Positions 30,728 to 37,926 of a stretch of DNA of 64,000 nucleotides are shown in pieces. The DNA comes from Streptomyces sp. NBC_00513 (GTDB lineage: Bacteria; Actinomycetota; Actinomycetes; Streptomycetales; Streptomycetaceae): assembly GCF_041431415.1 (NCBI RefSeq), contig NZ_CP107845.1, forward strand, positions 2,356,001 through 2,420,000, given 5' to 3'. The notes below the pieces were generated by a model. The model did not search any database. It was given only the letters and a program-made list of their open reading frames with translations, and was not told where the DNA came from. The first letter of the stretch is position 1, and every line of letters starts with the position of its first letter. Made by a program: the position numbers and the translations under genes.

Positions 30728-31288
30728 TCAGTCCTTGTGGACCGTGCCGTCCGGGTCGAGACCCCTGAACGACAGCAGGACGATCAGGATCCCGCCGCAC
30801 ACGATCGCCGAGTCCGCGAGGTTGAAGACGGCGAAGTGGGCGGGCGCGATGAAGTCGACGACCGCTCCCCGGAAGACCCCCGGCGAACGGAAGATCCGGT
30901 CGGTCAGGTTGCCCAACGCCCCGCCCAGCAGCAGGCCCAGCGCAATCGCCCACGGCAGGCTGTAGAGCTTGCGCGCCAGTCGGACGATCACCACGATCAC
31001 GGTGGCCGCGATGCAGGTGAAGATGATCGTGAAGGCCTCGCCGAAGCCGAAGGCGGCCCCGGGGTTGCGGATCGCCGAGAACTTCAGCAGCTCACCGATG
31101 ATCTCGATGGGCTGCTCGTGCTCCAGTTTCGCGACGACCAGCATCTTGCTGCCGAGGTCGATCAGGTACGCCAGCGTCGCCACCACCAGCAGTGCCACGA
31201 TCCGCCGGCGCCCCTTGGGCGCGGTCGATTCGGGCTCGGTGTCGTCCCCGACCTCCGGCGTACCGATGATGCGCTCCGCCTCTGCCAC
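30728..31288 (-). CDS. lspA: Lipoprotein signal peptidase LspA
   Basis: Signal peptidase II cleaves prolipoproteins after lipidation, in the cytoplasmic membrane. The 186-residue protein has four membrane helices and the catalytic aspartates D130 (GNLTDR) and D159 (FNLADS). The first 28 residues are an acidic/basic cytoplasmic extension ([19 protein letters not shown]) longer than in E. coli. The GTG at 31288 follows GAGGGA by 6 nt. It precedes rluD by 53 nt. Confidence 0.95.
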
Positions 31289-31349
31289 GTGAGTCCCTCG
31301 AACTAGCTCGAACCAGGTTCCGGCGAAACCGCCCTGCCAGGTTCCTGGA

Positions 31350-31378
31350 CCCTGACGAGACACGAGGGTACGTCAGGG
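31350..31378 (-). terminator. Possible hairpin between the DksA-like gene and lspA
   Basis: CCCTGACG and CGTCAGGG form an 8-bp stem with a 13-nt loop. It may end or attenuate transcription from the DksA-like gene; there is no T-run. Confidence 0.45.
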
Positions 31379-31396: not shown

Positions 31397-32176
31397 CTAG
31401 TGCCGCCGCTCCTGCCTCTGCTTGCAGTCCACACAGAGCGTGGCGCGCGGAAATGCCTGCATCCGGGCCTTTCCGATGGGCTTTCCGCAGGTCTCGCAGA
31501 GACCGTAGGTGCCCGCCTCCAGCCGTTCCAGCGCGCGTTCCGTCTGCTCCAGCATCAGGCTGGCGTTCGCCGCGAGGGCCAGTTCGGACTCCCGGGTGAT
31601 GTTCTTGGTGCCGGTGTCCGCCTGGTCGTCCCCCGCGCCGTCGCCCGAGTCCCGCATCAGCCCGGAGATGGCCGCGTCGGAGGCCTGGAGCTCGGCCCTC
31701 AGGCGCAGCACCTCGCTCTCCAGCTCGGCCCGGGCCTCGGCGACCTCCGCCGGCGTCCAGGGGTCCTCTCCCGGGCGTACGGGGAGCTCTCCGGGGGTGG
31801 CGGCCACCGCACCGCCCCGCGCCTTGGGCAGTCCACTGGTGGCGGCAGCGGCCGTCTTCCTGGCCGTGCCGGTGCTCTTCTTGGCGACCACTTTCCGGGC
31901 TCCCGTCTCTGACGCGGCATGCGCCGCCCCCTCGGTCGCGGCCCGTTTGGCCGTGACCTTCTTCGCCGTCGACTTCTCGGCGGCGGCCACCTTGGCGGTG
32001 GTCGCCGACTTCCTCGCGGATGCCTTTCTCGCGGGCGCCTTCCGCACGGCGGCCGTCTTCTCGGGCGCCGCCTCGGCGGGAGCCGGCGCCGGTGCCCCGA
32101 CCTCGGTTCCGACCTCGGTTCCGACAGCCTTCCCGACAGCCTTCTTGGTAGTCCCGGCGGTCTTCTTCGCCACCAT
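31397..32176 (-). CDS. DksA/TraR-type zinc-finger protein with Ala/Lys-rich N-terminal tail
   Basis: A 259-residue protein in two parts. Residues 1-130 are a low-complexity Ala/Lys/Thr-rich tail with KK and AKK repeats like histone H1 and Hup tails. A coiled-coil-forming stretch (about 150-215, EVAEARAELESEVLRLRAEL) and the C-terminal zinc finger follow (C227, C230, C248, C251 in CETCGKP and CVDCK). DksA/TraR proteins bind RNA polymerase in its secondary channel; the basic tail could bind DNA or RNA. The ATG at 32176 follows AAGGGG. It diverges from the ileS T-box region. Confidence 0.88.
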   Translation of the reverse strand: MVAKKTAGTTKKAVGKAVGTEVGTEVGAPAPAPAEAAPEKTAAVRKAPARKASARKSATTAKVAAAEKSTAKKVTAKRAATEGAAHAASETGARKVVAKKSTGTARKTAAAATSGLPKARGGAVAATPGELPVRPGEDPWTPAEVAEARAELESEVLRLRAELQASDAAISGLMRDSGDGAGDDQADTGTKNITRESELALAANASLMLEQTERALERLEAGTYGLCETCGKPIGKARMQAFPRATLCVDCKQRQERRH

Positions 32177-32452
32177 GGCCGCGGCCCCTTCACATACTGT
32201 GATCATTGCTCGCGAATCGTGCCGGAACGATAAATCGACGCCGGCCCCGCGGCAACGGGGCGCGCATCCCGCGAGGTCAACCTGCATCCGTTGTGCCCAT
32301 CCGGCGGCCCGGTAATCCGCCCCTCCCGCCCCACCGGAACCGGGACCGGCGCGTCAGCCCATCCGGGTCACTCCGCCCCGCGCCCCGCGGCCCCGCGCCC
32401 CCGCCCGGAATATCGGTCGGCCGCGCGCGGCGTCGGCCCGTACACTGGGCCC
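32177..32452. promoter_or_regulatory. Divergent promoter region, DksA-like gene and ileS
   Basis: About 276 bp without a gene. Near its right end is a -10-like TACACT (32441-32446) about 7 bp before the start of the T-box leader; no convincing -35 is visible. The left part must hold the promoter of the DksA-like gene; none is obvious. The centre (32290-32430) is extremely GC-rich. Confidence 0.4.
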
Positions 32453-32747
32453 AGCGAGAGGCATGGATGGGGACGAGTAGCGTCGGACGCAGCCAGGAGC
32501 GACCCGGGGACGGTGAGAGCCCGGGGGCGAGCGCGATGCGAAGGATCACCCCGGAGCCGCCGGAAGAAAGCCGTCACGATCACGGATCCCGCACGGATCC
32601 CCGTACGGGAAGTAGAACCGGCTTCGCACCCCAATGAGGGGGCCATCGGATCCGTCCGACGGCCAAGGAGGGTGGTACCGCGGGAGCGCGTCAAGGCTCT
32701 CGTCCCTCCGGACGGAAGTGACATCCCGCCGGAGGAAGAGTTCAGCC
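32453..32747 (+). promoter_or_regulatory. T-box riboswitch of ileS, probably translational
   Basis: The 14-base T-box core AGGGTGGTACCGCG (32669-32682) is present. Its TGGT can pair with the 3' ACCA of uncharged tRNA(Ile). An isoleucine codon ATC at 32565-ish (GGATCACC) is a candidate specifier; the stem I arrangement is not resolved here. Downstream, CCTCCGG (32705-32711) can pair with CCGGAGG (32729-32735), which contains the ileS ribosome-binding site, so the SD would be sequestered until uncharged tRNA binds. No T-run terminator follows, which favours translational control as described for actinobacterial ileS leaders. Confidence 0.88.
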
Positions 32748-32749
32748 TC

Positions 32750-35700
32750 ATGACCACACCGCCGCAGTACCGCCCGGTACCCGCCCAGGTCGACCTGCCC
32801 GCCCTCGAACACGCCGTCCTGGAGTTCTGGCGCGAGAGCAAGACCTTCGCCAAGACGCTGGAGCAGTCCGAGGGCCGCCCCGAGTGGGTCTTCTACGAGG
32901 GCCCGCCCACCGCGAACGGCATGCCCGGCGCGCACCACATCGAGGCCCGCGTCTTCAAGGACGTCTTCCCCCGCTTCCGCACCATGCGCGGCTACCACGT
33001 GGCCCGCAAGGCCGGCTGGGACTGCCACGGCCTGCCCGTCGAGCTCGCGGTCGAGAAGGAACTCGGCTTCAACGGCAAGCAGGACATCGAGGCGTACGGC
33101 ATCGCCGAGTTCAACTCCAAGTGCCGCGAGTCGGTGACCCGTCACACCGACGCGTTCGCCGAGCTCACGACCCGCATGGGCTACTGGGTCGACCTGGACG
33201 ACGCCTACCGGACCATGGACCCCGAGTACGTGGAGTCCGTGTGGTGGTCGCTGAAGGAGATCTTCAACAAGGGTCTGCTCACCCAGGACCACCGCGTCGC
33301 CCCCTGGTGCCCGCGCTGCGGCACCGGCCTCTCCGACCACGAGCTGGCCCAGGGCTACGAGACGGTCGTCGACCCCTCGGTCTACGTCCGATTCCCGCTG
33401 ACCTCCGGCCCCCTCGCGGGCGACGCCGCGCTGCTTGTGTGGACGACGACCCCGTGGACCCTGGTGTCCAACACGGCCGTCGCCACGCACCCCGAGGTCA
33501 CGTACGTCGTCGCCACCAACGGCGAGGAGCGCCTCGTCGTCGCCGAGCCGCTGCTGGAGAAGTCCCTCGGCGAGGGCTGGGAGGCCACCGGCGAGACCTT
33601 CACCGGCAAGGAGATGGAGCGCTGGACGTACCGGCGCCCCTTCGACCTCGTCGAGTTCCCGGAGCCCGCCCACTACGTCGTGAACGCCGAGTACGTCACG
33701 ACCGAGGACGGCACCGGTCTGGTCCACCAGTCCCCCGCCTTCGGCGCCGACGACCTCGCGGTCTGCCGCGCCTACGGCCTGCCGGTCGTGAACCCGGTCC
33801 GCCCCGACGGCACCTTCGAGGAGGACGTCCCGCTCGTCGGCGGCGTCTTCTTCAAGAAGGCCGACGAGAAGCTGACCGCCGACCTCGACGCGCGCGGCCT
33901 GCTCTTCAAGCACATCGCCTACGAGCACAGCTACCCGCACTGCTGGCGCTGCCACACCGCGCTGCTCTACTACGCGCAGCCGTCCTGGTACATCCGCACC
34001 ACCGCCGTCAAGGACGCGATGCTGCGGGAGAACGAGAAGACGAACTGGTTCCCGGACTCGGTGAAGCAGGGCCGCTTCGGCGACTGGCTGAACAACAACA
34101 TCGACTGGGCGCTCTCCCGGAACCGCTACTGGGGCACGCCGCTGCCGATCTGGCGCTGCGAGGAGAACCACCTCACCTGCGTCGGTTCCCGCGCCGAGCT
34201 GGGCGAGCTGTCCGGCACCGACCAGTCGGGCCTGGACCCGCACCGCCCGTACATCGACGACATCACCTTCACCTGCACGCACGAGGGCTGCTCCCTCGAA
34301 GCCGTGCGCGTCCCGGAGGTCATCGACGCCTGGTACGACTCGGGTTCGATGCCGTTCGCGCAGTGGGGCTACCCGCACAAGAACAAGGAGATCTTCGAGA
34401 AGCGCTACCCGGCGCAGTTCATCTCGGAGGCCATCGACCAGACGCGCGGGTGGTTCTACACGCTGATGGCGGTCGGCACCCTCGTCTTCGACAAGTCCTC
34501 CTACGAGAACGTGGTCTGCCTGGGGCACATCCTCGCCGAGGACGGCCGCAAGATGTCCAAGCACCTGGGCAACACCCTCGAACCGATCCAGCTGATGGAC
34601 CAGCACGGCGCGGACGCCGTGCGCTGGTTCATGGCGGCCGGCGGCTCCCCGTGGGCGGCCCGGCGCGTGGGCCACGGCACGATCCAGGAGGTCGTCCGCA
34701 AGACGCTCCTCACGTACTGGAACACGGTGGCCTTCCAGGCCCTGTACGCCCGCACGTCGAACTGGGCGCCGTCGGCGGCCGACCCGGCGCCCGCGGACCG
34801 CACGGTCCTGGACCGCTGGCTGCTCTCCGAGCTGCACACCCTCACCTCCGAGGTCACGGAGGCGATGGAGTCCTACGACACCCAGCGCGCCGGCAAGCTT
34901 CTGTCGTCCTTCGTGGACGACCTGTCGAACTGGTACGTCCGCCGCTCGCGCCGCCGCTTCTGGCAGGGCGACAAGGCGGCCCTGCGCACCCTCCACGACG
35001 TGGTGGAGACGGTGACCCGGCTGTTGGCCCCGCTCACCCCCTTCATCACGGAGCGGGTCTGGCAGGACATGGTCGTCCCGGTCACCCCGGACGCCCCGGA
35101 GTCCGTCCACCTCTCGACGTGGCCGACCGCGGACACCACCGCGATCGACCCGGAGCTGTCGCGGCAGATGCTGTTGGTCCGCCGCCTGGTGGAGCTGGGC
35201 CGCGCGACCCGCGCGGAGTCGGGCGTCAAGACCCGCCAGCCGCTGTCCCGGGCCCTGGTCGGCGCGACCGGTTTCGACGCCCTGACCCCGGAGCTCCGGG
35301 CCCAGATCACGGAGGAGCTGAACGTCTCCTCGCTGGCCTCCCTGTCCGAGGTCGGCGGGTCCCTCGTGGACACGACGGCGAAGGCCAACTTCCGTGCGCT
35401 CGGCAAGCGGTTCGGCAAGGGCGTGCAGGACGTCGCCAAGGCCGTGGCCGCGGCGGACGCGGCGGGGCTCTCGCTGGCCCTGCGCTCCGGTGAGGCCTCG
35501 GTCGAGGTGAACGGCGAGACCGTGACCCTCACCCCGGAGGAGGTCATCATCACCGAGACCCCGCGCGAGGGCTGGTCGGTGGCGTCCGATTCCGGGGCGA
35601 CCGTCGCCCTGGACCTGGAGATCACCCCGGAGTTGCGGCTGGCGGGCCTGGCCCGCGACGCGATCCGCCTGATCCAGGAGGCCCGGAAGAACTCCGGTCT

Positions 35701-35896
35701 GGACGTGGCGGACCGGATCGCCCTGCGGTGGTCCTCGGCGGACCCGGAGCTCGTGACGGCCCTGACGGACCACGCGGAGCTCATCGCGGAGGAGGTCCTG
35801 GCCACGGACTTCGCGACCGGCGAGGCCGACGCGTCCTACGGCGACCCGTTCACGGACGAACCCCTCGGCCTGACGTTCCGCCTCCGCAAGGCGTAA
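32750..35896 (+). CDS. ileS: Isoleucyl-tRNA synthetase with altered GxHH signature
   Basis: Class I aminoacyl-tRNA synthetase charging tRNA(Ile). It has 1048 residues, with the nucleotide-binding fold, the editing domain (about 200-400), KMSKS as K601-M-S-K-H605 (DGRKMSKHLGN), an anticodon-binding domain and a long C-terminal part. It is of the eukaryote-like type 2 rather than the E. coli type. The HxGH motif is changed: GPPTANGMPGAHH has G60-A61-H62-H63, so positions 1 and 3 are swapped. As I recall, a subset of type 2 enzymes with GxHH is reported to be strongly mupirocin-resistant. ATG at 32750, SD GGAGGAA inside the T-box sequestrator. Confidence 0.97.
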   Translation: MTTPPQYRPVPAQVDLPALEHAVLEFWRESKTFAKTLEQSEGRPEWVFYEGPPTANGMPGAHHIEARVFKDVFPRFRTMRGYHVARKAGWDCHGLPVELAVEKELGFNGKQDIEAYGIAEFNSKCRESVTRHTDAFAELTTRMGYWVDLDDAYRTMDPEYVESVWWSLKEIFNKGLLTQDHRVAPWCPRCGTGLSDHELAQGYETVVDPSVYVRFPLTSGPLAGDAALLVWTTTPWTLVSNTAVATHPEVTYVVATNGEERLVVAEPLLEKSLGEGWEATGETFTGKEMERWTYRRPFDLVEFPEPAHYVVNAEYVTTEDGTGLVHQSPAFGADDLAVCRAYGLPVVNPVRPDGTFEEDVPLVGGVFFKKADEKLTADLDARGLLFKHIAYEHSYPHCWRCHTALLYYAQPSWYIRTTAVKDAMLRENEKTNWFPDSVKQGRFGDWLNNNIDWALSRNRYWGTPLPIWRCEENHLTCVGSRAELGELSGTDQSGLDPHRPYIDDITFTCTHEGCSLEAVRVPEVIDAWYDSGSMPFAQWGYPHKNKEIFEKRYPAQFISEAIDQTRGWFYTLMAVGTLVFDKSSYENVVCLGHILAEDGRKMSKHLGNTLEPIQLMDQHGADAVRWFMAAGGSPWAARRVGHGTIQEVVRKTLLTYWNTVAFQALYARTSNWAPSAADPAPADRTVLDRWLLSELHTLTSEVTEAMESYDTQRAGKLLSSFVDDLSNWYVRRSRRRFWQGDKAALRTLHDVVETVTRLLAPLTPFITERVWQDMVVPVTPDAPESVHLSTWPTADTTAIDPELSRQMLLVRRLVELGRATRAESGVKTRQPLSRALVGATGFDALTPELRAQITEELNVSSLASLSEVGGSLVDTTAKANFRALGKRFGKGVQDVAKAVAAADAAGLSLALRSGEASVEVNGETVTLTPEEVIITETPREGWSVASDSGATVALDLEITPELRLAGLARDAIRLIQEARKNSGLDVADRIALRWSSADPELVTALTDHAELIAEEVLATDFATGEADASYGDPFTDEPLGLTFRLRKA

Positions 35897-36329: not shown

Positions 36330-37547
36330 CTAGTTGTCGTCCTCGTCGATCAGGAAGCCACGCATCGGCGACGGCGCCTGCATCGGCTGCGGAGCAGCAG
36401 GCCGCACCGGAGCCATCGGCTGGGTCATCGCCGGGGACATCTGCTGCTGGCCACCGTAGGACGGGCCGCTCATCGGGGACGGGCCACCCATCGGGGAGGG
36501 ACCGCCCATGGGGGACGGGCCACCCATCGACTGCCCCATCGCACCGGCCGGAGCCATGGACGGCGACGGCGGCAGCGCGGGACCGGCCGGGTTGCGCGGC
36601 GGGGCCAGCGAGTCGTCGGCCTGGGTCTCCAGCTGACGCAGCTGGGACTCCAGGTAGGACTTCAGGCGCGTACGGTACTCACGCTCGAAGCCTCGCAGGT
36701 CCTCGACCTTGCGCTCCAGCGTGGCGCGGGCGGACTCCAAGGAGCCCATCGCGACGCGGTGCTTCTCCTGCGCGTCCCGCTCCAGCGCGTCGGCCTTGGC
36801 ACGGGCGTCCCGCTCCAGACCCTCGGCGCGCGAACGGGCCTCGCCGACGATCTTGTTGGCCTCGGAACGGGCCTCCGCGATGGCCTGGTCGGCGGTCTGC
36901 TGCGCGAGCGACAGGACGCGGGCGGCGCTGTCGCCACCGGGGCCCTGCTGCGGAAGCTGCTGGTGCTGCTGGTGCATCTGCTGGCCCATGGGCTGCATCT
37001 GCTGCCCCATCGGCTGCATCTGCTGGCCCATCGGCTGGCCGAGCGGGTTCTGGCCGCCCATGGACTGCTGCTGCATCTGCTGCATCTGCTGGGGCTGCTG
37101 CATCTGCTGCGGCTGGCCCATCTGCTGCTGGCCACCCATGTTGTGCTGCTGCATGGGGCCGCCCATCGGGCCGGGACCCTGCTGGCCCTGTCCACCGGGG
37201 CCGGGGGGCAACTGCGGCTGACCGCCGGGCAGCTGGGGCGGGCCCATCTGCGGCTGCTGCTGCTGCGGCGGGCCGGATATGGCCGCGGGCACGGGTGCGC
37301 CGGGCCCACCGGGGCCACGCTGGTCCTGGGGTTCGGGCTTGCGCATGCCCTGTTGCTGCTGGTTCTGCGCGGCGGCGCGTGTGGCGGCGGCCAGCTTGGC
37401 GCGCAGGTCCTCGTTCTCGCGCAGCAGGCGCGTCAGTTCGGACTCGACCTCGTCGAGGAAGGCGTCGACCTCGTCCTCGTCATAGCCTTCTCGCAGGCGG
37501 ACGGTCGTGAACTGCTTGTTCCGCACGTCCTCGGGAGTCAGCGGCAT
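36330..37547 (-). CDS. divIVA: DivIVA, polar growth determinant
   Basis: DivIVA marks hyphal tips and drives apical wall growth in Streptomyces. The 405-residue protein begins with the membrane-binding DivIVA domain (MPLTPEDVRNKQFTTVRLREGYDEDEVDAFLDEVE). It then has a short coiled coil (about 34-60), a long Gln/Pro/Met/Gly-rich linker (about 65-205) with MGQQMQP repeats, the main coiled coil (about 208-310) and a tail with four near-identical GGPSPM units. It ends FLIDEDDN. The linker length and Q-richness are typical of Streptomyces homologues. The ATG at 37547 follows GAGGTGAAGAAG. Confidence 0.95.
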   Translation of the reverse strand: MPLTPEDVRNKQFTTVRLREGYDEDEVDAFLDEVESELTRLLRENEDLRAKLAAATRAAAQNQQQQGMRKPEPQDQRGPGGPGAPVPAAISGPPQQQQPQMGPPQLPGGQPQLPPGPGGQGQQGPGPMGGPMQQHNMGGQQQMGQPQQMQQPQQMQQMQQQSMGGQNPLGQPMGQQMQPMGQQMQPMGQQMHQQHQQLPQQGPGGDSAARVLSLAQQTADQAIAEARSEANKIVGEARSRAEGLERDARAKADALERDAQEKHRVAMGSLESARATLERKVEDLRGFEREYRTRLKSYLESQLRQLETQADDSLAPPRNPAGPALPPSPSMAPAGAMGQSMGGPSPMGGPSPMGGPSPMSGPSYGGQQQMSPAMTQPMAPVRPAAPQPMQAPSPMRGFLIDEDDN

Positions 37548-37629
37548 GTCTTCTTCACCTCTACGTAGTCGTCGGCAGTCGGCAAGACCGTATCGGGACT
37601 GTCCCCGGGTTCGCGGGGAAGCACATCGT

Positions 37630-37926
37630 TCACTGGCCGCTCGCACCAGCGCGCGCGAAAGTGATCAGGATGTAAACGATGATCATCAGAACGAAGAAGG
37701 ACAGGTCGAGTGCCACGCCCCCGAGACGCAACGGCGGAATGAAACGCCGAAGAAGCTTGAGTGGTGGGTCGGTGGCGGTGTAGGTGGCCTCCAGAACGAC
37801 CACCATCGCCTTGCCGGGTGTCCATGAACGTGCGAACTGGAACACATAGTCCATGACCAGTCGGAAGATCAGGATGCCCAGAAAACACGACAGCGCGATG
37901 TAGACCACTTCCATTGCGATGCCCAT
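37630..37926 (-). CDS. YggT family small membrane protein
   Basis: A 98-residue protein with two membrane segments (about 4-28 and 73-93) and the family stretch between them (FARSWTPGKAMVVVLEATYTATDPPLKLLRRFIPPLRLGG contains the TDP-LR-IPP signature). YggT proteins are next to sepF in most Gram-positive division clusters, and their role is unknown. The start is ATG at 37926 or the in-frame ATG at 37914. Confidence 0.9.
   Translation of the reverse strand: MGIAMEVVYIALSCFLGILIFRLVMDYVFQFARSWTPGKAMVVVLEATYTATDPPLKLLRRFIPPLRLGGVALDLSFFVLMIIVYILITFARAGASGQ

Follow-up and report, generated by a model that had tools for sequence, protein, structure and literature searches.

The ileS gene in the window (the whole 64,000-nucleotide stretch of Streptomyces sp. 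NBC_00513 DNA analysed here) raises the question of whether a cell can rely on an isoleucyl-tRNA synthetase (IleRS) in which the first and third residues of the class I signature HXGH have changed places, the motif being read as GAHH. Rearrangement of a near-invariant catalytic motif without loss of function, giving natural antibiotic insensitivity, has been in print since 2023 (PMC10485003); what is added here is one Streptomyces genome with the altered form only, and the observation that this form is common to the genus as sampled. We hold it as very nearly certain that the gene codes for the sole housekeeping type 2 IleRS (IleRS2) of this Streptomyces, swapped in its motif, which would be catalytically competent, would bind mupirocin in the millimolar range and would be under T-box control. 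Its motif, type, single copy and conservation, and the T-box homology of its leader, are established here; the features are collected in Table 1.

Table 1. Features of the ileS locus, in window coordinates
Feature	Position	Strand	Description or basis
ileS	32750-35896	+	ORF from ATG; 1048 aa + stop; type 2 isoleucyl-tRNA synthetase (IleRS2)
Class I signature GAHH, residues 60-63	32927-32938	+	Translation; aligned to HVGH of 1ile and 8c8v
Second class I signature KMSKH, residues 601-605	34550-34564	+	Translation; His replaces the last Ser
T-box leader	32455-32710	+	Rfam RF00230, 54.3 bits, E 3.5e-11, full model 1-219
Likely T-box specifier codon ATC (Ile) in GAAGGATCACC	32545-32547	+	Position by script
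Candidate hairpin CCTCCGG...CCGGAGG over the ileS ribosome-binding site	32705-32735	+	Arms at 32705 and 32729
dksA/traR zinc-finger protein gene	31397-32287	-	Pfam PF01258
lspA, signal peptidase II	30728-31363	-	Pfam PF01252
divIVA	36330-37646	-	Pfam PF05103

The mechanical first start of the open reading frame lies at 32291; the ATG at 32750 is preceded by CCGGAGGAAGAG, and alignment from residue 1 of the protein starting there is seen in many close relatives. The product scores 900.3 bits against the IleRS family model TIGR00392 (curated cut-off 621.4) and comprises the Pfam domains tRNA-synt_1, Anticodon_1, and DUF5915, that is, the class I catalytic, the anticodon-binding, and the DUF5915 domain. 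Its top matches among solved structures are 1ile (902 bits) and the chains of the 8c8u-8c9d series (888-901 bits); eukaryotic-type and related chains rank next (613-659 bits), and 1ffy (351 bits) and 8c9e/8c9f (337-345 bits) come lower. With labels that follow PMC10485003 in part, we take 1ile to be the Thermus thermophilus IleRS2 and 8c8u-8c9d the Priestia megaterium IleRS2, while 1ffy and 8c9e/8c9f are presumably the IleRS1 of Staphylococcus aureus and P. megaterium, respectively. The window IleRS scores higher against the IleRS2 structures than against the IleRS1 ones and is, on these scores, a type 2 enzyme. The NCBIfam models of MupA and MupB give it 760 and 742 bits, below their cut-off of 1900, which rules out an acquired resistance gene of the MupA/MupB type.

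The first-pass annotation had placed GAHH at residues 60-63 and KMSKH at 601-605, and the translation from 32750 bears both out, the span 32927-32941 given there for the former also covering the next residue, Ile. The same annotation had called the rest of the enzyme intact; KMSKH is indeed in place, but as a replacement of KMSKS it is itself a second signature variant. In the printed alignments GAHH falls column for column, gap-free, on the HVGH of 1ile and 8c8v; the residues are thus truly substituted and not shifted in register. The proposed comparison with IleRS1 and IleRS2, made on solved chains, comes down on the side of the latter by both the placement of the motif and the scores of the chains. 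The top chain of the 8c8u-8c9d series, 8c8w, reads GVHH and so is presumably an engineered swap mutant of PMC10485003. With Gly in the first and His in the third signature position, the window IleRS falls into the G/AXHH subset described in that paper (Nat Commun 2023), in which 379 IleRSs are surveyed, 86 are G/AXHH IleRS2, no IleRS1 carries the swap, and motif swaps in both directions tie G/AXHH to mupirocin hyper-resistance. This is the study of type 2 GxHH enzymes and mupirocin to which the first-pass annotation had referred. Since G/AXHH IleRS2, that of Streptomyces griseus being named among the bearers, are in print (PMC10485003), the window enzyme adds one more instance to a group already described.

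The relatives compared are the best 80 of 578 loci, 87-100% identical to the window IleRS; by title 79 belong to Streptomyces and one is an 'Actinobacteria bacterium', and two come from one strain. All 80 read EGPPTANGMPGAHH together with KMSKH, which rules out a sequencing error behind GAHH. That the reading stems from a misplaced start, a shifted frame or a miscalled base, an idea to which we give practically no credence, is contradicted by this agreement and by the gap-free alignment to solved structures. An exact degenerate pattern for GAHH in its context matches in 193 of 199 same-genus genomes, each match standing for the presence of the swapped form in that genome. The six misses comprise one GAHH/KMSKH enzyme, in which another codon of the pattern differs, two GTHH/KMSKS, two GTHH/KMSKH, and one genome, 78% complete, with no ileS match. 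The swap is present in 198 of the 199 genomes and so is not private to the strain, as had been anticipated for close relatives. Two ileS copies that read GAHH lie on two short contigs (ca. 25 kb) of one fragmented assembly, encountered both as L059 with L061 (one named strain) and as L114 with L120 (genome G152); they are probably an assembly duplicate.

The assembly to which the window belongs is a draft of four contigs, 8,621,285 bases (8.62 Mb) in total, with a completeness of 100. A protein search in it returns one full-length match (100% identity), and the other match consists of three pieces of one gene (28-30% identity). This second-best gene reads HLGH, PPPNVTGSLHLGH, and KMSKS and is taken to code for a valyl-tRNA synthetase (ValRS), PPPNVTG being a ValRS hallmark. 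The TIGR00392 model finds one place over the cut-off and eight others at no more than 187 bits; in the control for this search an IleRS was found in 14 of 14 genomes. The search for a second ileS that had been called for thus leaves the window gene as the only IleRS over the cut-off in 8.62 Mb, and a second IleRS is ruled out at the level of the family cut-off in this four-contig, 100%-complete assembly. It follows that, by gene count, the enzyme has the housekeeping role within the G/AXHH subset and the cell relies on the swapped motif. The setting of ileS is judged to be a chromosomal housekeeping region, because its neighbors are lspA, dksA/traR, divIVA, and, also identified by Pfam, sepF and ftsZ. 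It could be argued that the swap has left this gene product weak or without catalysis, as a paralogue beside another IleRS that does the housekeeping: in several class I enzymes activity drops about 1000-fold when the first His is mutated, and conservation of the Gly is strong (PMC10485003). This is highly improbable, given that no other IleRS exceeds the cut-off in an assembly scored as 100% complete, that the motif is conserved in the genus, and that the naturally swapped IleRS2 of Deinococcus radiodurans is active, with a kcat of 45.5 per s in Table 1 of the same paper.

The expression of ileS is probably governed by its leader. At gathering thresholds Rfam finds no RNA in the whole window; a search of 503 bases at a lax threshold returns the T-box, whose 54.3 bits lie below the gathering score of 93, and one snoRNA match at chance level. 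The sequence TGGNACCGCG, which we take to be the conserved T-box motif, is present upstream of ileS at 32673, and GGTGGTACCGCG is found upstream of ileS in all of the best 80 of 578 related loci. The Rfam gathering threshold misses the leader (32455-32735), although the T-box sequence is there in 80 of 80 related loci. A pattern of GAAG and ATCACC with at most one extra base occurs in 78 of these best 80 of 578 loci, the other two lying in doubtful contexts; this count holds for the laxer of two patterns, the stricter one being found in only 30 of 80. From what is generally known of T-boxes, the ATC within it is the likely specifier. In the minimum-free-energy fold predicted for 32668-32760 (z -2.55) the two arms of the candidate hairpin pair with each other, and the hairpin would hide the ileS ribosome-binding site. 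The T-box would sense uncharged tRNA-Ile, and ileS expression would be controlled at translation.

How far the swap extends beyond the genus was read in two samples, with counts arranged by kinship; the first motif table, with its 330 loci, still contains repeats and loci of ValRS. The class sample comprises 148 genomes, the genus contributing 13, and 145 gave a match; outside the genus 125 of 135 were read (seven with fragments only and three without a match were left out), of which 93 are swapped and 32 canonical, the latter reading HYGH with KMSKS. The last residue of KMSKS is His in 91 of the 93 swapped enzymes and in none of the 32 canonical ones. In the phylum sample, 135 of the 136 genomes from outside the class gave a match; 118 were read and 117 have a readable motif, 79 being swapped and 38 canonical. 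Canonical forms are under-counted in it, because the 17 unread matches are mostly low-scoring and type 1-like (the label 'IleRS1-like' follows a threshold on identity and score that we set ourselves and is no family assignment). Of its 79 swapped enzymes, 73 have Ser as the last residue of KMSKS, three have Arg and two His, and in one this residue is unread.

On a FastTree tree of 262 sequences, with the motif columns kept in and three short sequences (L306, L196, L227) left out, the swap state needs three changes and KMSKH five. Two of the three are read as swapped clades, one of them large and the other small and separate (L217-219, L222), and the third as a return to HIGH (L107, L108), the direction being suggested by nesting, as the tree program is blind to gain versus loss. 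The swapped clade of the window enzyme also holds most of the class read, and the swap is carried by whole families. PMC10485003 infers at least two origins for the swap, and the D. radiodurans IleRS2 presumably belongs to a different one of these lineages from the window enzyme.

Several sequences of the survey stand apart. L107 and L108, two of the nine members of family f12 in the tree, are IleRS2 that read HIGH among swapped GXHH neighbors of f12, with placement supports of 97, 97, and 100; listed contamination is 7% for the genome of L107 and 2% for that of L108. They are a candidate for natural reversion to the canonical motif, in addition to the case that PMC10485003 describes for Deinococcus-Thermus. 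L217, L218, L219, and L222 (families f42 and f43) are IleRS2 with GVHH or AVHT that form a clade of their own (support 100), with the KMSKS region altered to GEDMHYS, GEEMHYS, GEEFSKS, and GKEMHGS. In family f66, L232 (genome G417) is the sole GTHH/KMSKH enzyme among 12 read, the other 11 being HYGH/KMSKS; a single IleRS of G417 passes the cut-off, with 68% identity to the window IleRS, and the case suggests gene replacement by transfer from a swapped lineage. The fourth signature position also varies: it is Asn in L202 (HFGN, canonical clade) and in L199 (GVHN with KMSKH, swapped clade), and Thr (HXGT) in 16 of 26 type 1-like IleRS with a readable motif (27 read) of the phylum sample, these 16 being L223-L226, L228, L229, L332, L334, L335, L337-L341, L344, and L346; the count leaves out 14 further low-scoring matches. 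A narrow literature search for motif strings found no paper on HXGT; a laboratory-selected His-to-Gln change at the fourth position is described in PMC10485003. The candidate reversion and the fourth-position changes in type 1-like enzymes are additions of this survey and could be used for testing the tolerance of the site to change.

As regards the second signature, KMSKH as a private oddity of the strain is ruled out, being common to 80 of 80 related loci and 91 of 93 swapped enzymes of the class. It might be supposed that in the class the two signatures changed together, and that the mupirocin insensitivity, like the absence of tRNA-dependent pre-transfer editing reported for S. griseus, stems from the combination of GXHH and KMSKH and not from GXHH by itself; in that case editing or resistance would differ in swapped enzymes that have no KMSKH. 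KMSKS is found in two swapped Streptomyces enzymes (both GTHH). Tight coupling is spoken against by the 73 of 79 swapped IleRS2 outside the class that end in Ser, and since KMSKH needs only five changes on the tree, its agreement with GXHH mostly reflects shared descent, for which reason we consider this reading unlikely.

A better-placed alternative, to which we give somewhat less than an even chance, concerns the origin of the swap: it would have drifted neutrally within the IleRS2 scaffold and become fixed through descent, mupirocin resistance being a by-product that was never selected. It is favored by the three changes needed on the tree of 262 sequences and the carriage of the swap by whole families, as well as by the ability of IleRS2 to accommodate both motif forms (PMC10485003). 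The same paper, however, argues for selection by mupirocin-like antibiotics, and the lone swapped enzyme of f66 hints at movement of these genes from one lineage to another.

Under the preferred reading of the window enzyme as a competent housekeeping IleRS2, Ile-tRNA would be made by a class I site with the first and third signature residues exchanged. In PMC10485003, work on the P. megaterium, T. thermophilus, and D. radiodurans enzymes, including structures, shows the helix tip of IleRS2 to be shifted such that the third-position His takes the place of the first and can provide the imidazole needed for catalysis; the side chain of this His would, in a model of that paper, also clash with bound mupirocin. 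The swap structures there are of engineered P. megaterium mutants, not of a Streptomyces enzyme. From the published helix-tip shift and the clash model we infer that the window enzyme is catalytically competent, with the catalytic geometry as published, and that it binds mupirocin in the millimolar range only, like the S. griseus enzyme.

The closest known system is the S. griseus IleRS2, which resembles the window enzyme in genus, type, and, as reported, non-canonical motif (PMC4861432, PMC10485003); in PMC10485003 the work on S. griseus is the reference given for IleRS2 as a sole gene. The mupirocin Ki of 10 mM was obtained with the S. griseus protein (PMC4861432; J Biol Chem 2016). According to that paper, the enzyme is devoid of tRNA-dependent pre-transfer editing; its authors hypothesise that editing was given up as resistance evolved, so that the trade-off idea is already in print. 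The D. radiodurans IleRS2 likewise has the first and third signature positions swapped and is active, but reads ALHH instead of GAHH; its Ki, in Table 1 of PMC10485003, is 6.6 mM, and 8.1 micromolar when changed to HVGH, a fall given by the paper as 823-fold. The IleRS2 of P. megaterium and the T. thermophilus IleRS, the best solved sequence matches, differ from the window enzyme in their natural motif, HVGH, with Ki values of 1.08 and 0.20 micromolar, which rise on swapping to 460 and 35 micromolar, respectively (same table). Finally, the leader has its counterpart in the T-boxes described upstream of ileS in several Actinobacteria, which act on translation initiation (PMC1262725); as far as their description goes, they share with it the location upstream of ileS and a hairpin over the Shine-Dalgarno site.
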